Part shown: positions 4,878-43,292 of the stretch, piece after piece
Numbering within the stretch: the first letter of the stretch is position 1
Layout of the letters: every line of letters begins with the position of its first letter
NCBI GenBank assembly: GCA_017934045.1
Contig: JAGBKK010000024.1
Location: forward strand, 124,001 to 188,000
Direction: 5' to 3'
Origin: Neisseriaceae bacterium
GTDB lineage: Bacteria; Pseudomonadota; Gammaproteobacteria; Burkholderiales; Neisseriaceae
Length of the DNA stretch: 64,000 nt
Notes under the pieces: generated by a model
Seen by the model: only the letters and a program-made list of their open reading frames with translations
Databases searched by the model: none
Told to the model about the DNA's origin: nothing
Program-made: the position numbers and the translations under genes

Positions 4878-5240
4878 TTATAAAATTTCAACAATATTGC
4901 GAGCGGCGCGTTTGGCGTCCAAGAAAATTAAGCCTAATTTCGCACCTTCACGAGCAATTACGGTTAGCACGGCATCTGAACCTGCGTGGGTCATCAAAAT
5001 ATAGCCGTTAGAACCTTTTACCATCACTTGCTCTAAATCGCCACGATTTAATTCGCGTGCTGTGCGTTCGCCCAAAGCCAACATTGCAGCAGCCATCGCA
5101 CCTACGCGGTCTTCATCAACATCTTGTGGCAACAAAGCAGCCATTGTTAAACCGTCAGCAGAAATAATGGCTGATGCCTCAATGTCTGCCGATGAACCAT
5201 TCAAATCACTCAAAATGGATTTCAACATTTGCTCACGCAT
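4878..5240 (-). CDS. Roadblock/LC7 domain protein (MglB-like)
   Basis: A 120-residue single-domain Roadblock/LC7 protein and the last gene of the six-gene operon. The typical alternation is visible: an N-terminal helix (MLKSILSDLNGSSADIEAS), the strand pair AIISADGLTMAALL, the central helix (DRVGAMAAAMLALGERTARE), then the strands QVMVKGSNGYILMTHAG and AVLTVIA and the closing helix. Such proteins act as regulators of small Ras-like GTPases, for example MglB acting on MglA, and as conservon components in Streptomyces. The start has a good GGAG ribosome site. A canonical GTPase gene lies two genes upstream, so a GAP or scaffold role is the simplest inference. The family is near certain and the partner is inferred. 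Confidence 0.88.
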   Translation of the reverse strand: MREQMLKSILSDLNGSSADIEASAIISADGLTMAALLPQDVDEDRVGAMAAAMLALGERTARELNRGDLEQVMVKGSNGYILMTHAGSDAVLTVIAREGAKLGLIFLDAKRAARNIVEIL

Positions 5241-5283
5241 AATTCAATCTCCAAAAAAATCAAAGTCCTTAAATTAAAAATCA

Positions 5284-5919
5284 TTAACCATAACGGCGAT
5301 ACAGCACTTGCACCAATTCGACAAAATTGTCGTTTTGTAACTGCGGTGTGCCGCCAATCACCAAAATCAGTTTGTTTTCACCTAAATACATAGGGAAAAA
5401 TGCCAACTCACTGCGTCCAGCGGGATCGCACACTGCCCACGAGTTTTGGTTGATATTCAAGTTGTTTTTAATCAACAGGGCGTGTTGTTCCGATAGACGC
5501 GCCACTTCACCTGCCAAAGCAGCAATTTCTTCGGCTGATTCGTGATGAAAACCTGCACAGGCATAATACAAACCGTTGTCGTCAGCAATCAGAGCTTTGT
5601 TGGTGTCTGACAGTTGTGCCAACAATTCAGGCAGCCTGTTTTCCAAGTTATCCTGTGCAATCACGGTGGGTTTATCTTCACCGTACAAAAATTCCAAGCG
5701 TTGTAAGCGATACAATAAATTGATGGCAGATTCTAAATTATCTGAACCTGACCATTGCAATAAGGATTCTTCGCTTACAGGTTGTGGATCAACGGTTTTT
5801 AAAATACCGTGTAGCAGTGTCCGAGAAGGGTTTTGTTGTGTCCCAGAAATCGCATAATAGGCACCCGCCGCCGTAACTTTGGGATACAACTGTGTTTGTA
5901 ATGAAAGATTAGTTTCCAT
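5284..5919 (-). CDS. Divergent Roadblock-like protein with N-terminal extension
   Basis: A 211-residue protein between the GTPase and the MglB-like gene. Its C-terminal half (from about residue 108: KALIADDNGLYYACAGF, then EEIAALAGEVARLSEQ, then ELAFFPMYLGENKLILVIGG) has the strand-helix-strand pattern of a Roadblock domain, but diverged. The N-terminal 100 residues (SRTLLHGILKTVDPQPVSEESLLQW...AINLLYRLQRLEFLYGE) look like a small helical or winged-helix module. It starts 4 bp after the GTPase stop with an AGAGG ribosome site, so translation is probably coupled. One DUS lies inside (near 5626). The Roadblock call is by pattern only; a structure prediction would decide it. Confidence 0.6.
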   Translation of the reverse strand: METNLSLQTQLYPKVTAAGAYYAISGTQQNPSRTLLHGILKTVDPQPVSEESLLQWSGSDNLESAINLLYRLQRLEFLYGEDKPTVIAQDNLENRLPELLAQLSDTNKALIADDNGLYYACAGFHHESAEEIAALAGEVARLSEQHALLIKNNLNINQNSWAVCDPAGRSELAFFPMYLGENKLILVIGGTPQLQNDNFVELVQVLYRRYG

Positions 5920-5923
5920 ATTT

Positions 5924-6460
5924 TTATACCTCTAATCCTGGGTCAATGGAAAATAATAATGCCACCACTAAATGTTTCACATCATTCGGTTCACGACCAT
6001 CAACCTCAAATACAGGAATGTTGAGTTTTTTATCGGCTAAATAGTGTTGATATACCGCAATCGTGGGCGATGCTTGTATATCCATTTTGGTTACACCGAT
6101 AACGACTGGTGCGTAAGCCAACAAATCTTTAAATGCGTCCAAGAAAAATTCCAAGTCTTTCAAAGGCGTAGGACGGGTGTTGTCCAACATTAACACCAAG
6201 CCCAATGCCCCTGTACTTAAAATTTCCCACATAAAATCAAAGCGTTCTTGACCTGGTGTACCATACAAATGCACTTTGGTTTCTTCGTCCAAGTGAATCA
6301 CGCCATAGTCCATCGCCACGGTGGTGTGGTCTTTGCGTGCTAATGTCATATCGGACGCATGGGCATCGGTTTTAATCGGCGGCTCATCACTAATCGCAGA
6401 AATCGCCGTGGTTTTGCCAACACCAACTGGACCTGTGAAAATAATCTTACTTTCTACCAT
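5924..6460 (-). CDS. Small Ras-like GTPase (COG2229/MglA-like)
   Basis: A 178-residue single-domain GTPase. G1 is GPVGVGKTT (residues 10-18). A Thr pair (46-47) is a candidate switch I. G3 reads YGTPGQERF (66-74), where the usual Asp of DxxGQ is Gly67 but the catalytic Gln71 is kept. G4 is TKMD (124-127). This combination is typical of the COG2229 branch found beside Roadblock proteins, as in Streptomyces conservons, and is related to MglA. No lipid-attachment Cys is seen, so it is a cytosolic switch. The start has an AAGGGA ribosome site. It lies between the receiver protein (25 bp upstream) and the divergent Roadblock gene (4 bp downstream). Confidence 0.87.
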   Translation of the reverse strand: MVESKIIFTGPVGVGKTTAISAISDEPPIKTDAHASDMTLARKDHTTVAMDYGVIHLDEETKVHLYGTPGQERFDFMWEILSTGALGLVLMLDNTRPTPLKDLEFFLDAFKDLLAYAPVVIGVTKMDIQASPTIAVYQHYLADKKLNIPVFEVDGREPNDVKHLVVALLFSIDPGLEV

Positions 6461-6485
6461 AATCAGTTAATCCCTTAATAAACCA

Positions 6486-7658
6486 TTATTCTTTCACTGC
6501 CAAACGGCTCATCAAGCGTTGCAACATACCTGTGTTTTGTGCACGGTATTTTTGTCGCACCACAATGCCGTCTTCTTGCAAACCATTGCCTTGCACTTTT
6601 TCAGCCAACGGCGATGTGGATTTGCCATCAAATTTTTGTGTCATTGCTTGAATCGTCTCTGGATCAGCCGCTAACAAGCCTACCATATAGGTGGCAGCAA
6701 TAAAATCTAATAAATCTTTTAATTCCACACGCAAAATTTTATATAAAATATGCAAATTTGCGGTGGTTTGTGTCATAAAGGCAGACAAGCGCATAGCGTC
6801 TGAAATGTGTGCTAAACGCGTTAAGTTTGGCCAGCCTTTCAAACGCACCAATGTATCAGGTAAAATTTCCGACACCAAACGACCACGGCAAGTCCAAACC
6901 GAAAATTGCCACAGACAAGACTCGAAACTCACTTTGGCATTTTTACGCCAAGTTGGATTATCGGCAATGTATTTAATGCTGATTTGGGCGTTGTCGTTCT
7001 CGCACAGTTTTTTCAAGTCATCGGGCGATACTGCCAATAAGATTTTTTGAATCACGGGGAAAACAATCAGCAATGGTTTGTTTTCATACACCAAAGCAGC
7101 GTCTTTGTTTTGGCTACACACCACACGCAACGCCCCTAATAAACCGTGTTGGGCATTGAATTTGCGAATATTAGCAGTGGGCAGTTGTTCTTTGCGTTGA
7201 AATTTACGCACCACAAACTGATCTTGGTGTTCTACACCTTGTTCTTTTTCTTTGAGTTTGCGTTCCAAGTTCAAACGGTGGCGTTCGGCTTCCGCTTTTT
7301 CGCGTTCAATGCGTTTTTGATCTGGGTTATACAAACCTTCACCACGCAAAGTGGCTTTAATCAAAGGAAACAAAGCTTCGATTTTGACGGGTTTGGGCAG
7401 GTAATGCACGGGGAATTCGGGTTCATTCACCGAAGTATAAATCGCTGGCATTTCAGGATACTGTGCTTTAAAGTCATGCCACGCTTGCACGCCCTCTGCA
7501 CCATCAACATCGACAATCGCCAAAGTGGCTTGATCGCCCTGTTCAATAATGTTGTATTTAACTGCGGCATGCATTTTGAATGCCATGCGAAATACAGCCA
7601 TTTTTTTGTCGTCCATACCGACCAACAAAACATTTTTTGCGACTTGTTGGGATTGCAT
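6486..7658 (-). CDS. Receiver-domain protein with coiled coil and unknown C-terminal domain
   Basis: A 390-residue protein. Residues about 8-105 look like a CheY-type receiver: NVLLVGMDD gives the acidic pair (D16/D17), LAIVDVDG the possible phospho-acceptor (D50), IYTS the Thr/Ser position, and YLPKPV the conserved Lys-Pro. A charged helix (about 112-145, RIEREKAEAERHRLNLERKLKEKEQ) probably forms a coiled coil. The remaining 240 residues are a mixed domain ending in a helical part (LTRLAHISDAMRLSAFMTQTTANLHILYKIL) that I do not recognise. The ATG overlaps the stop of the upstream FimV-like gene (TAATG), so the two are translationally coupled. It may link phosphorelay input to the GTPase, which is inference. 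Confidence 0.65.
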   Translation of the reverse strand: MQSQQVAKNVLLVGMDDKKMAVFRMAFKMHAAVKYNIIEQGDQATLAIVDVDGAEGVQAWHDFKAQYPEMPAIYTSVNEPEFPVHYLPKPVKIEALFPLIKATLRGEGLYNPDQKRIEREKAEAERHRLNLERKLKEKEQGVEHQDQFVVRKFQRKEQLPTANIRKFNAQHGLLGALRVVCSQNKDAALVYENKPLLIVFPVIQKILLAVSPDDLKKLCENDNAQISIKYIADNPTWRKNAKVSFESCLWQFSVWTCRGRLVSEILPDTLVRLKGWPNLTRLAHISDAMRLSAFMTQTTANLHILYKILRVELKDLLDFIAATYMVGLLAADPETIQAMTQKFDGKSTSPLAEKVQGNGLQEDGIVVRQKYRAQNTGMLQRLMSRLAVKE

Positions 7659-9196
7659 TATTTCACCCGCCCTTCATTCATTCGTTGCGTTAAGTTACTC
7701 AAAGCCACGACCACATCTTCTGGTAAATCCACATTGTCGGAACGCACTTTAATGGAAAAGTCTTCAAAGCGTTTCCAGTTTTCGGAGCGTTCGTATAAGT
7801 CTAACAACAATGTATAAAGTTGTGCTTCTTGACGGTGTGCAAACACGCCGTCTTCCAAAATTTTGATAGCACCATCAATTTCACCATATTCTAATAAAGA
7901 ATCGGCTTCCTGAATAATAGCTTCAATTTCGTTGGTGGCTTGACGCATTTCTTGTTTGCGATCTTCTACCACCAAAGCTTGCATACGCGATTTCACCGCA
8001 CTGGCACTTTCGCCCACATAGCCATATTTAACGCCTAATTCTTTAATGGCTACTTCATTTTGTGCGTCTTCTAACTCATCAAACAGTGGGTGTTGTCCCA
8101 AAGATGAACCCCAACCCAACATTTTTTCTTTCACCAAACGACCGTAACGACCCAATACGGAATACAGATTCCATAAATGTTCGGCATAGTTGTTGATATT
8201 TTGATTGTTGTAATCAGAATTGAGTGCGTCAATCGCAATCGATGCAGGGCGTTTGGCATCAGAAATGGCTTTGTTATACAGATTAACTGATGAAACATAG
8301 TCAATTTCTTTACCCAAAAGCCGTGCCGCTTTTTCGCGTGATGAGAATGCGATAACAGTTTCGCGTTCATCAGGGGTAATATTGGATACGCCACTGAAAC
8401 CTTTGACCAACTGTTTGCCTGCTTCCAATTTGGCAAAGTAAGACTCGCGTCCTGCACTTTGACGGGTTTTTTGGGTTTGGGCAAATTCTTCTAAATCGTC
8501 TGTTTTAGCGACCTTGTCGGCGACTTGTTGTGCAGGTTCAACAATACGATCTTCTTTAACAATGGTGCGTGCAATTAAATCAGGATCCCAGCCCAAGCGT
8601 TCTTCGGCAAAGACACGCAAGTCCAAGTTATTGGGTTCTAATTCAAACGCCATTTTGGTTACTTCTTCTAATTCAGGGCGTTCAAATGTGTCTTCGTAAT
8701 CACGCAGGGCTTGTACAAATGTATCAACATCGCCGATTTCCAAGTACATACCACACAGTTCAAACACCAATTCTTTGGGTTTTTCTTCCAAAAGAGAAAG
8801 GTAACCATTCAGGGATTTAGCGGCTTTGTCATAATAGCCGAATTGTTTATACACTTTGTATTCGGTTAAGTCATCAACTTCGGCTTCGGACACGGTAGAG
8901 ACTTCCGCACCGCCGAATGCGTCATCGCCCAATTCAAAGGTTTTGGCAATTTGTACATCATCAAAACCGTCATCAAGCGTCGGCGAAGCAGGTGCAACCG
9001 CATCAGCAGCTGTGGGTGGTGGTGGCATATCCAAGCCGTCTGCCACTTTATCACGCAATGCTGATGCTGGTGCTGACTCATAGTCGGTTGAACTTCTGCG
9101 TTCAGGTTGTTCAGGTTGGTGGGTCATTTTCTTAAATGCAAAGAAAACACCAACCAAAACAACCAGTAACGCAACAAGAGCAATTACAAATATCAT
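7658..9196 (-). CDS. FimV-like TPR membrane protein
   Basis: A 512-residue protein with one N-terminal membrane helix (residues 2-22), an acidic and proline-rich linker (about 30-80), and then TPR-like helical repeats. A first repeat block, EYKVYKQFGYYDKAAKSLNGYL, resembles the cytoplasmic repeats of FimV/TspA proteins. More helical pairs follow, including a C-terminal TPR (about 440-490). No LysM domain or large periplasmic part is seen, so this is a shortened FimV-like protein facing the cytoplasm. FimV/HubP proteins are polar hubs for type IV pilus and chemosensory proteins. It follows the di-iron protein gene by 70 bp with a strong AAGGGG site. The FimV relation rests on architecture and should be checked by HMM search. 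Confidence 0.6.
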   Translation of the reverse strand: MIFVIALVALLVVLVGVFFAFKKMTHQPEQPERRSSTDYESAPASALRDKVADGLDMPPPPTAADAVAPASPTLDDGFDDVQIAKTFELGDDAFGGAEVSTVSEAEVDDLTEYKVYKQFGYYDKAAKSLNGYLSLLEEKPKELVFELCGMYLEIGDVDTFVQALRDYEDTFERPELEEVTKMAFELEPNNLDLRVFAEERLGWDPDLIARTIVKEDRIVEPAQQVADKVAKTDDLEEFAQTQKTRQSAGRESYFAKLEAGKQLVKGFSGVSNITPDERETVIAFSSREKAARLLGKEIDYVSSVNLYNKAISDAKRPASIAIDALNSDYNNQNINNYAEHLWNLYSVLGRYGRLVKEKMLGWGSSLGQHPLFDELEDAQNEVAIKELGVKYGYVGESASAVKSRMQALVVEDRKQEMRQATNEIEAIIQEADSLLEYGEIDGAIKILEDGVFAHRQEAQLYTLLLDLYERSENWKRFEDFSIKVRSDNVDLPEDVVVALSNLTQRMNEGRVK

Positions 9197-34160: not shown

Positions 34161-35192
34161 ATGAAAATGCGGAAACTCTGCATATCGCTCTGCGTGGCGT
34201 TGGGGTTAGTTGCGTGTAGCAGCGATTTGGAACAAGATGTCTCCAAAATCCCTGCTGCACAATTAGGTGCCGTTGTAAGTAGCATCGACACTAACCCATA
34301 CTTTCAAAGTATGTACAAATCATTTCAAGACACTGCCGCCGAAAATTCACAGTTGAATTTGCAATTAGAAGCGTCCAAGGACGACCAAGAATTGCAAAAC
34401 AACCAAATCGAAGCCATGATCAACAGCGGTGCCAAAGCCTTGGTGATTAACTTGGCAGACACCAAAGTCGGACCAGAATTAGCAATGAAAATGTGCGACC
34501 GCCGTATTCCTGTGGTTTATATCAACCGCACACCAGGCAATAAAACATTACAAGAATGTGATATTGCCTATTTTGTTGGTTCAGACGACTATCAAGCAGG
34601 CATTTTACAAGCCCAATTAGCCTTGGAAAACTGGACAGAACACCCCGAATGGGACAAAAACGGTGATGGTAAAATGCAACTTGCTATTTTGGAAGGCAAT
34701 CCTGCCATTCATTCCGCAAGAATTCGTGCCAATTGGGCAATTTCTTCGTTGAAATTCAATCCTGAAAACGGATTAGGTTCAGAAGGCATTGACATTGTTC
34801 TCCAAGAAACAGGTCGATACAGTTTGGATGTTGCCAAAGAAGTCGTGGGCAAATGGATCAATTCGCCTGATTTCAACAAAGTGGAAGTCATTTTAGCAGG
34901 CAACGACAACATGGCTTTGGGTGCGGCTGAAATATTAGAAGCTAACAACAAAAAAGTACCCATTTTTGGTATTGACGGCTTACCCAAAACCCAAGATGCC
35001 ATCAAGCACGGTCGTGTTTTTGCCACCATTTTGAATGACGCAGATACACAAGCACGCGTAGCATTGCGTATGGCTGCCAATTTGGCAAATGAACGCCCTG
35101 TTACAGAAGGCGTATTCTTGGATATGGACGAAAGTGGTACAGTTTCTGTGCCATTACGCCGTTTAGACGATCAACCTGCTCAATCAAATTAA
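34161..35192 (+). CDS. Galactose-binding-protein-like lipoprotein
   Basis: A 343-residue periplasmic-binding-protein I fold lipoprotein; the lipobox LGLVACSS puts the Cys near residue 20. It resembles E. coli galactose/glucose-binding protein throughout: the calcium loop DKNGDGKMQ, YFVGSDDYQAGI, AGNDNMALGA, FGIDGLPK and TILNDADTQA. Several sugar ligands are kept (N and D in GNDN, D in GIDG, N in LND). Others differ: the aromatic at the TAMWD position is Arg-Tyr here, and the HPDAEAR block reads IHSARIR, so the ligand may not be galactose. No ABC permease is adjacent. The next gene, 14 bp away, is a membrane kinase, so it is probably a sensor subunit. The 264-bp gap before it is very AT-rich, with no recognised site. 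Confidence 0.82.
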   Translation: MKMRKLCISLCVALGLVACSSDLEQDVSKIPAAQLGAVVSSIDTNPYFQSMYKSFQDTAAENSQLNLQLEASKDDQELQNNQIEAMINSGAKALVINLADTKVGPELAMKMCDRRIPVVYINRTPGNKTLQECDIAYFVGSDDYQAGILQAQLALENWTEHPEWDKNGDGKMQLAILEGNPAIHSARIRANWAISSLKFNPENGLGSEGIDIVLQETGRYSLDVAKEVVGKWINSPDFNKVEVILAGNDNMALGAAEILEANNKKVPIFGIDGLPKTQDAIKHGRVFATILNDADTQARVALRMAANLANERPVTEGVFLDMDESGTVSVPLRRLDDQPAQSN

Positions 35193-35206
35193 AGAAAGGA
35201 TCAATC

Positions 35207-37369
35207 ATGGCTGACAAAAATAAATATACCAGCGAAGAGAGCCTATTTTCCAAATATGGCATGTTGATTCTCTCCATCGCAGGTTTCTTATTGCTGATTG
35301 TGATTTTGTCCTTGGCAACCTATTACTACACCAACAAAATTACCCAAGAAACACAAAAAGTGGCGTTGGTGGGTGAGCAAGGTGAGATTACACAGGAAAT
35401 TGCACGGATTGCGTTCTCGCAAGAATCTTACTTAACCAACGAAGTGTTCCGCCGTTATCAAAAAGACGGTAAATTGGTCAATCGTATTCCTTTGGAAGAG
35501 TTTCCACAAAATACACTCTTCCGCCGTACAGAAATGAAACGCTTGGCAGACCGTTATAACGAAATTCTGTTGCGTTTGGAACACGGTGGTGAAATTGCCG
35601 ACCGCCATGGCAATATTATTACCATTAGCCCTGTACAATTAGCAACAACGCGTGCTAACTTGGAAGCAACCAAACAAATGTGGGATTACTACTATCCACT
35701 GATGACAGAATTCGAGTTGGAAGCCGAAACGGGTTACTTAACTCGCGACTATGCCACTTATGTGATGGAATATACGCGTCAATACAACCGCACACTGCAA
35801 CGCGATACTTCTCGGGTATCATCACTCATTCAAGCGTATGTTGATCGCTTGCAAAAAGAACTCTTTTGGATTCAAACGGCTGGTGTGGTTTTGGCATTAG
35901 CATTGTTCTTCTTGATGATTTTCGGTACTATTCGCCGCTTGATTGAAGGCGACCGCAGATTGGGTATTGCACGCCGCGAAACCGAAGAAATCTTGGAAAC
36001 CATTAACGAAGGTTTGTTCTTGGTGGATAGAGACTTGAACATCGGTCATCAATATTCTGCCCACTTGGAGAACATTATTGGTCAAAAAGAAATCGGTGGT
36101 AAAAAACTCAACGAAGTCTTGTCCAAATTGGTGGATAAAGAAACCATGGAAGTTACCGAAACCTTTATCGAACAGTTGTATTCCGACTGGGTGGTAGAAG
36201 ACCTGATTGACGACTTAAACCCACTGCATCGCATTCGTGTGGAAGTTGATGACTTTTCAGGTTACTACGAAACGCGTTATTTAGACTTTAACTTCTCACG
36301 CGTGTATGAAGGTGAAGCGATTGATAAAGTGTTGTGTTCCGTGTCCGATATTACCAATGCGGTGGTCTTGGAAGAAAAATTGGCAGCCGAACGCGAACAA
36401 AACGACCGCCAAATCGAAATGTTGGGTACCATTTTGGCTGCCGAACCTACGATGTTGGATAACTTTATCAAAACCACTAAACGCCGCATTAACGATATTA
36501 ACTCGGCATTGCGTCGTCCAGAGCGTGGTCAAGCGGCTTTGCAAGAAAAAGCTAAACTCATTTTCCGCGAAGCCCACAGTATGAAAGGTGAAGCATCTGC
36601 CTTGAAATTGGCATCATTTGTTTCTCAATGCGAAAGCTTTGAAAACAAAATTAAAGAGTTGCAATCCAATCCACGCTTGACAGGTAACGACTTCTTGGGC
36701 TTAACCGTGATGTTGGACGAAATTATGTCGTTAAGTGATGTGGTGGCGAATTTGAACGATCGCATTACTGGTGGTCGCACAAGTTCAGGTGGCACCGTTG
36801 CAGCACCGTCTAATGTGATGAAAAAATACTTTAACTCCTTTGCCGCAGACATTGCCGAACGCAATGGCAAAAAAGTGGCTTTGGATTGTCAAGGTATGGA
36901 CGATGGTATGCTTTCAGGCAGCCTACAAGACACCATCAAAGACATTGCCGTACAAATGTTGCGTAATGCCATTGTTCATGGTATTGAAGATCCACTCGAT
37001 CGCAAACGCGATGGCAAACCAGAAGCAGGCAATGTACAACTATTGCTGACTCGCCGTCCAGGTAATATGGCAGAGTTATTGGTGGAAGATGACGGTTCAG
37101 GCATTCACTTTGATAAAATTCGTCAAAGATTGGTAGAAAAAGGCACTTGCACCGAAGATGAAGCTCGTGAAATGCAAAAACGCGAACTCATTATGCACCT
37201 GTTTGATTCAGGTTTATCCACAGCCGAAGAAGGCAACCAAGACGCAGGTCGTGGTGTGGGTATGGATATTGTTCGCGAACGCATTGCCGAAATCAAAGGC
37301 AAACTGAAAATTGCTTCTGAAGAAGGTCAATACACTCGTTTCACCGTAACTTTCCCTTTGGGCGTATAA
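35207..37369 (+). CDS. Membrane-bound CheA-like histidine kinase (HPt + HATPase, no CheW domain recognised)
   Basis: 720 residues. A membrane helix (about 17-39), a periplasmic helical domain of about 180 residues, a second helix (about 219-241), a PAS-like domain (about 250-390), a coiled coil, then an HPt domain with the phospho-acceptor His457 in FREAHSMKGEASALKL. The CheA-type ATPase follows: LRNAIVHGIEDPLDR (N box, near 585), DDGSGI (near 627) and GRGVGMDIVRERI (near 680). The protein ends right there: the P5/CheW-like regulatory domain of CheA is missing, and so are receptors and CheW. It thus looks like a self-contained receptor-kinase working with the binding lipoprotein upstream and the CheY-like regulator downstream. 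One DUS lies in the gene (near 36913). Confidence 0.82.
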   Translation: MADKNKYTSEESLFSKYGMLILSIAGFLLLIVILSLATYYYTNKITQETQKVALVGEQGEITQEIARIAFSQESYLTNEVFRRYQKDGKLVNRIPLEEFPQNTLFRRTEMKRLADRYNEILLRLEHGGEIADRHGNIITISPVQLATTRANLEATKQMWDYYYPLMTEFELEAETGYLTRDYATYVMEYTRQYNRTLQRDTSRVSSLIQAYVDRLQKELFWIQTAGVVLALALFFLMIFGTIRRLIEGDRRLGIARRETEEILETINEGLFLVDRDLNIGHQYSAHLENIIGQKEIGGKKLNEVLSKLVDKETMEVTETFIEQLYSDWVVEDLIDDLNPLHRIRVEVDDFSGYYETRYLDFNFSRVYEGEAIDKVLCSVSDITNAVVLEEKLAAEREQNDRQIEMLGTILAAEPTMLDNFIKTTKRRINDINSALRRPERGQAALQEKAKLIFREAHSMKGEASALKLASFVSQCESFENKIKELQSNPRLTGNDFLGLTVMLDEIMSLSDVVANLNDRITGGRTSSGGTVAAPSNVMKKYFNSFAADIAERNGKKVALDCQGMDDGMLSGSLQDTIKDIAVQMLRNAIVHGIEDPLDRKRDGKPEAGNVQLLLTRRPGNMAELLVEDDGSGIHFDKIRQRLVEKGTCTEDEAREMQKRELIMHLFDSGLSTAEEGNQDAGRGVGMDIVRERIAEIKGKLKIASEEGQYTRFTVTFPLGV

Positions 37370-37386
37370 AATAGGAGAACGCATAA

Positions 37387-37776
37387 ATGCATAAGTTAAT
37401 GATTGTCGATGACTCGAACATCATTCGCAAACGAATCGAACGCAGTTTTGACAGCAATCAATTTGAATTGGTCGCCGTTGCCTGCGATGGTGCAGAAGCT
37501 ATTGCTAAATGCAAAGAGTTCAGTCCCGATGTCGTTACAATGGATTTGACCATGCCCAATATTGACGGCTTGGAATGTATCCGCAATTTGGTAGGCATTA
37601 AACCAACCATCAATATTTTGGTGGTGTCTGCTTTGTCCGACAAAGCCACAGGTTTATTGGCAATTAAATACGGTGCAAGGGGTTTTATCTGCAAACCCTT
37701 TACCGATGAGCAGTTAATCGAAGGCTTAAACAAAATGATTCGTTTTGATTTAGCCAAACGAAATGGTAAAAAATAA
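37387..37776 (+). CDS. CheY-like response regulator
   Basis: A 129-residue single receiver domain with no output domain. Acidic pair D8/D9 (IVDDSN), phospho-acceptor D53 (VTMDLTMPNIDG), S81 (VVSALSD) and K103 (FICKPF). It starts 17 bp after the kinase stop with AGGAG. It is probably phosphorylated from His457 of the kinase and acts by protein contact, possibly on motility, pili or the polarity operon at 4.9-10 kb. The target is inferred. Confidence 0.92.
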   Translation: MHKLMIVDDSNIIRKRIERSFDSNQFELVAVACDGAEAIAKCKEFSPDVVTMDLTMPNIDGLECIRNLVGIKPTINILVVSALSDKATGLLAIKYGARGFICKPFTDEQLIEGLNKMIRFDLAKRNGKK

Positions 37777-37793
37777 CCGCTCCTGTAACAACA

Positions 37794-37822
37794 AACGCCC
37801 ACTTCAAGTGGGCGTTTTTTTT
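37794..37822 (+). terminator. Terminator of the kinase operon
   Basis: ACGCCCACTT-C-AAGTGGGCGT stem with eight T residues; a DUS follows. Confidence 0.9.
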
Positions 37823-41518: not shown

Positions 41519-42472
41519 ATGTCTGATTTTTTATTTTTGGGTATGTCCAAAATTGCCTTTTTTGGGGCGTTGGAAACAGGGTTGATTTATGCCTTGGTGG
41601 CTTTGGGCGTGTTGATTTCGTTTCGTGTGTTGGATTTTCCTGATTTAACGGCGGACGGCAGTTTTCCTTTGGGTGGTGCGGTGTGTGCGGTGTGTATTGT
41701 GCAACCACCCACTTCACCCTTATCTTTTTTATCCAATCCTTGGCTTGCCACTTTTTTGGGTATGGCAGCAGGTGCGGCGGCTGGTTTGGTTACCGCGTGG
41801 CTAAATGTTTCCTTAAAAATCTTACACTTACTCGCCAGTATTTTGGTGATGGTGGCACTGTATTCCGTCAATTTACGCATTATGGGTGCGCCGAATGTGC
41901 CGCTGTTGGGCGAAGCAACCGTTTTCACGCCGTTTTTAACGCCTGAAAATTCCTTTTATATGAAAGCATTAGTGATTTTTGCTTTTGTGGTTGTGTTTAA
42001 ACTATTATTAGACTGGTTTTTTTCTACCGAAATCGGCTTATCGGTGCGTGCCACAGGGGCAAATCAACGCATGGCACAAGCACAGGGCATTGCCACACGC
42101 AAAATGGTTGTGTTTGGTATGGCGTTATCCAACGCTCTCATTGCATTAGGCGGTGCATTATTTGTGCAAATTTACGGCAGTGCGGATATTTCAATCGGTG
42201 TCGGCACAATTGTCATCGGCTTGGCGGCGGTGATTATCGGCGAAACCTTAATGCCCACCAAACGCATTATTTTGATTACCGTGTCGGTGATTGTCGGCTC
42301 TATTTTATATCGCCTGTTTATTCAGTTAGCCTTGGGCAACGAAACTTTAAGCGATTTAGGCTTAAAATCACAAGATGTGAATTTGGTTACGGCTGTTTTG
42401 GTGGTGATTGCTTTGGTGTTGCCTAAATTGAAGTCGCAAATGTTAAAGCGAAAAATGAAACACGGTGCATAA
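41519..42472 (+). CDS. ABC transporter permease (TrpXYZ/BMP-like)
   Basis: A 317-residue inner-membrane permease with about eight to nine helices. The opening GALETGLIYALVALGVLISFRVLDFPDLTADGSFPLGGA and the block VRATGANQRMAQAQGIATRKMVVFGMALSNALIALGGAL match the putative tryptophan/tyrosine-type permeases (YtrC-like, TrpY). The ATP-binding gene follows after 25 bp. The family is normally encoded with a substrate-binding protein, which is missing here, so it may be elsewhere or lost. Substrate unknown. Confidence 0.85.
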   Translation: MSDFLFLGMSKIAFFGALETGLIYALVALGVLISFRVLDFPDLTADGSFPLGGAVCAVCIVQPPTSPLSFLSNPWLATFLGMAAGAAAGLVTAWLNVSLKILHLLASILVMVALYSVNLRIMGAPNVPLLGEATVFTPFLTPENSFYMKALVIFAFVVVFKLLLDWFFSTEIGLSVRATGANQRMAQAQGIATRKMVVFGMALSNALIALGGALFVQIYGSADISIGVGTIVIGLAAVIIGETLMPTKRIILITVSVIVGSILYRLFIQLALGNETLSDLGLKSQDVNLVTAVLVVIALVLPKLKSQMLKRKMKHGA

Positions 42473-42497
42473 ATGATAAAGTAAAGAGACCATTATT

Positions 42498-43292
42498 ATG
42501 ATGCAGGCAGAGAACCTATTTTTAACCTTTAACAAAGGCACACCGATTGAAAACCCTGTTTTGCGGGGTATGTCGTTGAGTATCAAAGACGGCGAATTTG
42601 TAACCGTCATCGGCAGTAATGGAGCAGGCAAATCCACATTCTTAAACGCCATTAGCGGTATTCAATTTGTGGATTCAGGCAAAATTTTTCTGAATGGTAA
42701 AGATGTAACGCGAATCGGCGCTCACAAACGCGCTCACTGGGTGGCACGCGTTTTTCAAGACCCAATGGCAGGCACTTGCGAAGCGTTAAGCATTGAAGAA
42801 AATCTCGCATTAGCCGACAAACGCGGACACAAAAGGGGTTTCAAATTAGCCATTGATAAAGCAAAACGCGAACGATTCCGCGAAAAATTGTCGATTTTAA
42901 AATTAGGCTTGGAAAACCGCCTGTCCGACCGTATGGGCTTATTATCAGGCGGACAACGCCAAGCGGTGAGCCTGCTTATGGCGTCCTTACAACCGTCCAA
43001 AATTTTGTTATTAGACGAACACACCGCCGCACTCGACCCCAAAACCGCCGCCTTTGTGATGGAACTCACCGACCAAATTGTCGCTGAAAATAAACTCACC
43101 GTAATGATGGTAACGCACTCCATGCGACAAGCATTAGACCACGGCACACGCACGGTTATGCTTCATCAAGGACGCGTGGTATTAGATGTCGCAGGCGAAA
43201 AACGACAAGGCTTGGAAGTTACCGATTTACTCAAAATGTTTGAAAAAACACGCGGCGAAGAAATTGATGACGATTCACTGCTTTTGGGGTAA
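42498..43292 (+). CDS. ABC transporter ATP-binding protein
   Basis: 264 residues. Walker A GSNGAGKST, Q loop ARVFQDPMAGT, signature LSGGQRQAVSL, Walker B ILLLDEHTAALD and switch His in VTHSMRQAL. The Q-loop context (FQDPMAGTC) matches the partners of the TrpXYZ-type permease upstream. It carries a short acidic C-terminal extension (RGEEIDDDSLLLG). ATGATG offers two starts. It is the last gene of the pair and is followed by a hairpin. Confidence 0.92.
   Translation: MMQAENLFLTFNKGTPIENPVLRGMSLSIKDGEFVTVIGSNGAGKSTFLNAISGIQFVDSGKIFLNGKDVTRIGAHKRAHWVARVFQDPMAGTCEALSIEENLALADKRGHKRGFKLAIDKAKRERFREKLSILKLGLENRLSDRMGLLSGGQRQAVSLLMASLQPSKILLLDEHTAALDPKTAAFVMELTDQIVAENKLTVMMVTHSMRQALDHGTRTVMLHQGRVVLDVAGEKRQGLEVTDLLKMFEKTRGEEIDDDSLLLG

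Follow-up and report, generated by a model that had tools for sequence, protein, structure and literature searches.

How is a CheA-type kinase controlled in a cell in which neither CheW nor chemoreceptors are found? By the usual description, CheA acts through CheW and receptor arrays. A survey (PMC10542144) reports CheW as present in all of 13,673 CheA sequences surveyed. The window, the whole stretch of 64,000 nucleotides from Neisseriaceae bacterium that was analysed, contains an operon in which a CheA-type catalytic core is joined straight to its own sensor, and CheY and CheX are retained in the genome. A modified sugar-binding lipoprotein encoded at the head of the operon probably switches this membrane kinase, which would then phosphorylate a CheY-like protein. 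All three open reading frames were recovered where the initial annotation had placed them, with 14 bp between the lipoprotein and kinase genes, as it had claimed, and 17 bp between the kinase and receiver genes. The three genes are one operon, with the following features:

34161..35192, + strand: gene of an MglB-like solute-binding lipoprotein, 343 aa (open reading frame, profile matches)
35207..37369, + strand: gene of a transmembrane sensor kinase with HPt and CheA-type P4, without CheW/P5, 720 aa
35243..35332, + strand: TM1 and extension, kinase residues 13-42 (hydropathy; helix in the structure model)
35333..35860, + strand: predicted periplasmic four-helix bundle, residues 43-218, PilJ/NarQ/LytS-N-like fold (structure model)
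35861..35947, + strand: TM2, residues 219-247 (hydropathy and structure model)
36011..36349, + strand: predicted PAS-like alpha/beta domain, residues 269-381 (structure model)
36446..36781, + strand: HPt helices, residues 414-525 (Pfam and structure model)
36575..36577, + strand: codon of the phosphoacceptor His457, conserved in 46/46 family kinases
36815..37366, + strand: CheA P4-type ATPase, residues 537-720, N and G boxes retained
37387..37776, + strand: gene of a CheY-like single-domain receiver, 129 aa (Asp53, Ser81 and Lys103 from the translation)
37793..37817, + strand: terminator-like hairpin, end of the operon

Is the kinase a genuine relative of CheA? Pfam matches identify an Hpt domain (residues 416-492, 2.8e-8) and HATPase_c (residues 581-718, 2.5e-14), and the P4 domain aligns with CheA P4 over 171 residues (Z 22.9, rmsd 2.2), the best non-CheA structure reaching Z 15.8. 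The initial annotation's assignment of an HPt and a CheA-type ATPase is thereby borne out, as is its choice of His457 as the HPt histidine. For comparison, 83 genomes of the family were scanned, giving 49 kinase matches, of which 46 were taken as family kinases. The three left out are G064:C55 (P4 only, a different kinase for which no receiver was found), G065:C9 (a short N-terminal fragment repeating a listed gene), and G012:C1:1613222 (E 5e-4). Because the 46 aligned kinases conserve the phospho-histidine, N box, and G boxes, a degenerate, dead CheA is rejected.

The lack of a CheW-like P5 domain had been noted before, and the search of the C-terminus agrees: Pfam gave no CheW match in the kinase, the protein stops after P4, and none of the relatives examined extends more than 29 aa past the match. 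A hidden CheW domain is rejected. The model contains no P3 dimerisation hairpin between HPt and P4, P3 being poorly conserved and the linker being modelled with low confidence. The kinase therefore resembles the CheA of arrays (P1-P5) in its HPt, its CheA-type P4, and its separate CheY, but differs in having no CheW/P5, no P3 hairpin that could be seen, and transmembrane sensor and PAS-like domains of its own.

Do CheW or receptors act from elsewhere in the genome? The earlier observation that no receptor or CheW gene lies nearby holds genome-wide, and across the family for matches over the cut-off. Profile searches with positive controls found no CheW in the window's genome or in any of the 83 family genomes; the MCP signalling domain was found over the cut-off in 0/83, with one sub-cut-off match in a genome of another genus, and FliM likewise in 0/83. 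Conserved MCP or CheW partners, a finding that the initial annotation had said would overturn its proposal, are accordingly absent at these cut-offs, and the pathway here can only work without them. The kinase, CheY, and CheX are the only chemosensory-type equipment found in the family, the MCP absence again applying over the cut-off.

The three genes do not form a closed system. The CheY-like protein is a receiver domain alone, with the acidic pair, Asp, Ser/Thr, and Lys in place (Pfam, translation), and a CheY-like receiver gene lies within 500 bp of 46/46 family kinases, which are distributed over 29/83 genomes. CheX occurs in 28/83 genomes, all of them bearing the kinase and none lacking it; the sole kinase-bearing genome with no CheX match is 58% complete. 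The CheX phosphatase gene thus belongs to the system as well. In the window's genome, this gene (L165) lies away from the operon; its product scores 71 bits against PF13690 (cut-off 27) and its translation retains the E-x-x-N motif. It resembles the CheX/CheC/FliY CheY-P phosphatases in both respects, but the CheX of this module accompanies a CheW-free kinase, and the NCBIfam Thermotogales CheX model scores 33 against a cut-off of 280. The same genome holds a second kinase-CheY pair, associated with a different type of binding protein. Of the compact chemosensory chain envisaged initially, therefore, operation without CheW and MCP and the conserved pairing of binding protein and kinase stand, whereas the three genes are not the whole system.

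What does the lipoprotein contribute? Its lipobox, LVAC, ends at Cys19. It matches PF13407 (2e-43, Pfam profile search), the best NCBIfam model is MglB, whose equivalog cut-off of 420 bits it misses with 223, and the nearest solved structure by sequence is the galactose-binding protein 5kws. Asp14, His152, Asp154, and Trp183, sugar ligands of the MglB galactose/glucose-binding protein, are all changed relative to E. coli GBP (to Thr, Ile, Ser, and Tyr, respectively), in agreement with the altered sugar ligands reported at first; the calcium site of GBP is retained. Among 13 distinct MglB-like proteins encoded next to a kinase on the same strand, Asp14 and Asp154 are absent in 13/13, and Arg158 and the aromatics at 16 and 183 are retained in 13/13.

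The lipoprotein could instead be an ordinary transport component that lies upstream of the kinase by chance, serving for example the ABC permease and ATPase at 41519-43292. The permease at 41519, 6.3 kb 3' of the lipoprotein gene, is indeed the only PF02653 member of the genome. However, it lies outside the operon, beyond the terminator-like hairpin, and is not MglC-like (31.6 bits with the MglC model, cut-off 386); the best model, UrtB, gives 36.3 bits against a cut-off of 250. Moreover, the sugar ligand residues are lost, yet the linkage of MglB-like gene and kinase is kept across genera. A transport role is very unlikely on these grounds, and the original remark that the lipoprotein has no transporter agrees with the absence of an adjoining one.

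The pairing can be followed on a kinase tree of 100 rows, comprising the 46 family kinases and 54 of 80 loci from outside the family (at least 450 bits, non-duplicates); the tree was built quickly and has several long branches. For A1, A2, and A3, the rows given are 37/46, 37/55, and 46/59 of those available. Throughout one kinase clade, an MglB-like gene lies on the same strand 10-75 bp upstream of the kinase. On two other branches, separated by starred forks, the kinase gene is preceded at 2-114 bp by an SBP_bac_3 gene of the same strand, so the two unrelated binding-protein families cluster on the tree. The initial annotation had suggested examining co-occurrence in related genomes, and by this measure the receiver adjoins every family kinase and binding-protein pairing is conserved by clade. 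PMC11113362 reports that 10/11 characterised binding-protein/kinase couples are encoded close together. Neighbours of this kind are not always functionally linked, since in the same paper (PMC11113362) the Pseudomonas aeruginosa proteins PA0602, AgtB, and PA4985 did not bind to their neighbour kinases.

Does the kinase need the lipoprotein in order to sense? As had been claimed, it carries a periplasmic domain of its own, a helical bundle between two transmembrane helices according to hydropathy and the model. Structural alignment of the bundle gives Z 14.9 with PilJ (132 residues, rmsd 2.4), Z 12.7 with NarQ (196 residues, rmsd 3.5), and Z 12.4 with LytS-N from the XylFII-LytSN complex (121 residues, rmsd 2.9), but these matches are not specific, because the designed helical bundle 6egc scores Z 14.3. 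It is thus possible to envisage a kinase that senses alone via a PilJ-type bundle, with the lipoprotein modulating it or concentrating a ligand that the bundle binds. Neither an MglB- nor an SBP_bac_3-type gene lies upstream of 28/46 family kinases, and therefore the kinase can sense without such a protein and the lipoprotein is an add-on rather than part of the core. PilJ Pfam matches occur in 17/37 relatives, and PMC6381276 describes direct ligand binding by a PilJ-type domain, that of nitrate to McpN. The window kinase's bundle, however, falls below the PilJ profile, and both the retention of closely spaced binding-protein genes across a whole kinase clade and the presence of a different family on other branches speak against this reading, which is unlikely here. 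The PAS-like domain proposed earlier stands as a predicted fold, which suggests its presence at residues 269-381; there is no Pfam match for it in the window kinase, and weak PAS matches occur in at most 5/46 relatives (PAS_4 in 4, PAS_9 in 1).

Binding-protein genes beside transmembrane kinases with helical periplasmic sensors are also found in LuxP-LuxQ, TorT-TorS, and XylFII-LytS. The kinases of these systems differ in their phosphoacceptor cores, and their outputs are transcriptional or run through LuxU. LytS-N, whose structure was solved in complex with a sugar-binding-protein homologue, aligns with the window's bundle; by contrast, the CheA-like HPt/P4 core, CheY, and CheX set the window's system apart from all three.

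We infer, with a probability of about 0.72, that the operon encodes a CheW- and MCP-free pathway running from the lipoprotein to the kinase to CheY and reset by CheX. In the periplasm, the GBP-derived lipoprotein, with its changed pocket, would bind a small molecule, and one of its conformations would dock on the kinase dimer at the helical-bundle sensor domain. Docking would alter the bundle, the PAS-like domain, and the position of HPt relative to P4, and might thereby change how fast the kinase autophosphorylates on His457. From there, the phosphoryl group would pass to Asp53 of the adjoining CheY-like protein, and the CheX encoded elsewhere in the genome would dephosphorylate CheY~P.

On which machine does CheY~P act? 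A flagellar output is rejected for this family by the lack of FliM, and an output through c-di-GMP is unlikely in the window's genome, which has no GGDEF protein. In the proposed pathway, free CheY~P would act on a non-flagellar machine, the likeliest candidates being the type IV pilus or the GTPases of its polarity. In the window's lineage, a paralogous MglA-like GTPase adjoins CheX, or forms a single gene row with kinase, CheY, and CheX, which hints at type IV pilus polarity as the output. As a strict family-wide partner the GTPase is rejected: its family occurs in 70/83 genomes, 41 of these without the kinase, and only the one lineage-specific paralogue is CheX-linked. T2SSE-family ATPases do not discriminate either, being present in 83/83 genomes with or without the kinase. 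No physical or genetic link to pilus genes was found, and the receiver has no output domain. Together with these distributions, this would also fit a CheY-like protein that feeds some other target, for example a transcription factor, a kinase, or a protease adaptor. Such an output is quite possible, at somewhat less than even odds; the CheX-linked paralogue, and the absence of a flagellar switch from the family and of GGDEF proteins from this genome, weigh on the other side.

The type IV pilus has a chemosensory system of its own, Pil-Chp, with the components PilJ, PilI, ChpA, and PilG. The module is similar to it in its PilJ-like bundle, its HPt/P4/CheY chemistry, and its occurrence in bacteria that have T2SSE-type ATPases but not FliM, but it lacks an MCP signalling domain and CheW, and its sensor and kinase are one protein. 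No description of a CheW-free kinase-CheY-CheX module was recognised in open-access PMC text. Tentatively, and with the chances rather against it, the module may represent a widespread receptor- and adaptor-free chemosensory class with exchangeable binding-lipoprotein heads, which in the window's genus has recruited an MglA-like GTPase. Sugar-like and amino-acid-like signals would then control the polarity of type IV pili, or motility, in bacteria that have none of the classical chemotaxis components. The module is a small system in which to ask what gates a P1/P4 kinase that has neither P5 nor arrays, and which role CheY plays in a cell lacking a flagellar switch. Two unrelated binding-protein families upstream of homologous kinases are a natural experiment in plugging into one sensor bundle.

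Is the module confined to this family? The outside loci are the best 80 of 273 scan matches, so their counts apply to close relatives rather than to the kinase family at large; L007/L085, L010/L087, and L037/L086 are the same records twice. Among these best 80 of 273, a receiver gene lies within 1.5 kb of the kinase in 74/80 and CheX within 2 kb in 73/80. Many bacteria thus share the kinase-CheY core, mostly together with a CheX gene, and it seems to be a self-contained alternative to chemoreceptor arrays. CheW was also sought in 35 outside genomes, reached from 36 of these 80 loci, and was present in 33/35, so that only the CheW-free genomes show the module to be independent of CheW. Each of the eight genomes tested from Moraxella and Psychrobacter contains exactly two CheW domains, one of them in a ChpA-like open reading frame of about 2,000-2,700 aa; a Pil-Chp-type system and the module therefore coexist there.

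The three-gene locus of the initial annotation was borne out by open reading frames on one strand, with gaps of 14 bp between lipoprotein and kinase and 17 bp between kinase and receiver; the genes form a single operon:

34161-35192, same strand as the other two: MglB-like lipoprotein gene
35207-37369, same strand: kinase gene, 720 residues
37387-37776, same strand: CheY-like receiver gene, 129 residues

A terminator-like hairpin lies at the operon end, 16 bp past the receiver gene; its 11 pairs are the most among five hairpins found, hairpins being about as frequent as in shuffles (5 against 4.6 expected). The host genome is 1.9 Mb and 99% complete, and the nearest named relatives among the best 80 of 273 outside loci are Neisseriaceae MAGs from ruminant stomachs (L085, L086).

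Is the kinase a CheA? Pfam and structure prediction divide it as follows:

residues 1-268: long helical bundle flanked by two transmembrane stretches (hydropathy), as modelled with pLDDT 90
residues 269-381: predicted PAS-like alpha/beta domain (PAS_4 weakly matched in 4/46 family relatives)
residues 416-492: Hpt
residues 581-718: HATPase_c

The ATPase groups with CheA P4 in NCBIfam and among solved structures, and its predicted fold gives Z 22.9 to CheA P4 versus 15.8 to the best non-CheA protein. In contrast to the CheA proteins of a published survey, which reports a CheW domain in all 13,673 sequences (PMC10542144), the protein ends with the P4 ATPase; the CheW domain is likewise missing from its relatives, judged by tail length (≤29 aa) over 152 locus entries, some of them duplicates. 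The kinase is CheA-like in predicted chemistry, yet no CheA by membership. Searches that matched in control genomes found CheW, MCPsignal (over cut-off) and FliM in none of the 83 family genomes.

The top VIA-align match of the sensor bundle is PilJ (Z 14.9, 132 residues), followed by NarQ (Z 12.7 over 196 residues, both membrane helices included) and LytS-N of the XylFII-LytSN complex (Z 12.4); these matches are weak taken alone, because a designed bundle also reaches Z 14.3. The PilJ profile is matched by 17 of 37 kinase relatives at E ≤0.1 (best 1e-14), the window's own kinase not being among them.

The kinase is present in 29 of the 83 family genomes. Each of the 46 family kinases has a receiver gene no more than 500 bp away, and 24 also have a same-strand CheX gene at a distance of up to 2 kb. 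CheX occurs in 28/83 genomes, all kinase-bearing; the sole kinase-bearing genome lacking it, G061, is 58% complete. Much of this co-occurrence reflects linkage, seen from coordinates in 25 of the 28; the unlinked genomes (G058, G063 and the window's own, G000) nonetheless retain both. G000 also holds a second kinase-CheY pair (L031 5349-8822, G000:C34), with an SBP_bac_3 lipoprotein gene 15 bp upstream (PF00497, 2.1e-29). A different kinase at L048 4021-5583 (G064:C55) shares only the CheA-like P4 part (77 bits), and no adjoining receiver gene was found there.

Beyond the family set, the best 80 of 273 relatives are in part Neisseriaceae again; they include Moraxella, Psychrobacter, Cardiobacteriaceae, Lysobacteraceae, Burkholderiales and others, together with Treponema, Turneriella, a Cyclobacteriaceae member and an Acidobacteria MAG. 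Among these 80 loci, 74 have a receiver no further than 1.5 kb from the kinase, and 73 have CheX no further than 2 kb away; the spirochaete order is mostly CheY-CheX-kinase. CheW was found in 33 of 35 outside module-bearing genomes tested, Neisseria wadsworthii and one Cardiobacteriaceae MAG being the exceptions. Thus, the module is often found together with classical systems; in Neisseriaceae, and in that Cardiobacteriaceae MAG at least, it occurs by itself. Most Moraxella and Psychrobacter loci (L091-L107, L150, L160) carry a tandem CheX pair 3' of the receiver.

What might the output be? Six receivers and type IV pilus-type ATPases of the T2SSE family are encoded in the window's genome, which has no GGDEF; T2SSE occurs in 83/83 family genomes. 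Across the window's genus and the genus sister to it, six genomes have a GTPase gene adjoining CheX, and in 7 of 8 the gene neighbours either CheX or the kinase operon. By sequence, the closest solved relatives of this CheX-linked GTPase are MglA proteins. In Myxococcus, MglA and a roadblock partner set pilus polarity downstream of a chemosensory system. The relevant loci are:

L165 4436-5655 (G000:C3): CheX and an adjacent MglA-like GTPase paralogue, unlinked to either G000 kinase
L032 4361-7891 (G064): GTPase, kinase, receiver and CheX in one row; GTPase and kinase ORFs overlap as called
window 4878-5240, minus: roadblock/LC7 protein (PF03259, 3.7e-19) beside a GTPase copy
window 5284-5919, minus: second, weak roadblock-like protein
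window 5924-6460, minus: second MglA-like GTPase copy
window, within 4878-9196, minus: 390-aa protein, no Pfam match
window 7658-9196, minus: TPR protein, FimV-like by eye

Window 4878-9196 is a possible polarity module. A tie between module output and the MglA-like GTPase or pilus polarity is suggestive only, because the GTPase family occurs in 70/83 family genomes, kinase present or not.

The binding proteins vary. Directly upstream, an MglB-like gene accompanies 12 of the 46 family kinases on the same strand and two divergently, and an SBP_bac_3 gene four, including L031; among the best 80 of 273 outside loci the numbers are three and 16, three of these 19 being records already in the family counts. 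Neither type stands there in 28/46 family and 61/80 outside cases. In a kinase tree made by a quick method, with long branches, the MglB-linked kinases fall inside one 17-row group (support 93), and SBP_bac_3-linked kinases lie on two branches with starred forks between. Binding-protein type changes at least 8 times, versus 31.8 in shuffles, a clustering inflated by near-copies. That binding proteins of two unrelated families neighbour a single kinase family is best accounted for by a common role in signalling. The proposed pathway, in which the binding protein would signal directly to the kinase, finds partial support as a chain without CheW or MCP and widens into a CheW-free kinase-CheY-CheX module, to which the binding proteins are exchangeable add-ons.

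Pockets were compared across 13 distinct same-strand kinase-adjacent MglB-like proteins. All 13 have lost Asp14 and Asp154, to Thr/Ser and Ser/Gly respectively or, in one, to His and His; Tyr or Phe stands in place of Trp183, Arg158 is retained and position 16 is aromatic throughout. The calcium loop is almost whole and the MglB-type fold is kept despite these changes. Since the ligand residues are replaced, the lipoprotein's ligand is probably not glucose or galactose. No transporter gene adjoins it. The genome's only PF02653 permease, which is not MglC-like and scores below MglC level, lies with an ABC ATPase at window 41519-43292 (plus strand). Near CheX or kinase loci, at L170 5410-6510 and L037 736-1842, there are other MglB-like lipoproteins whose ligand residues have decayed further.
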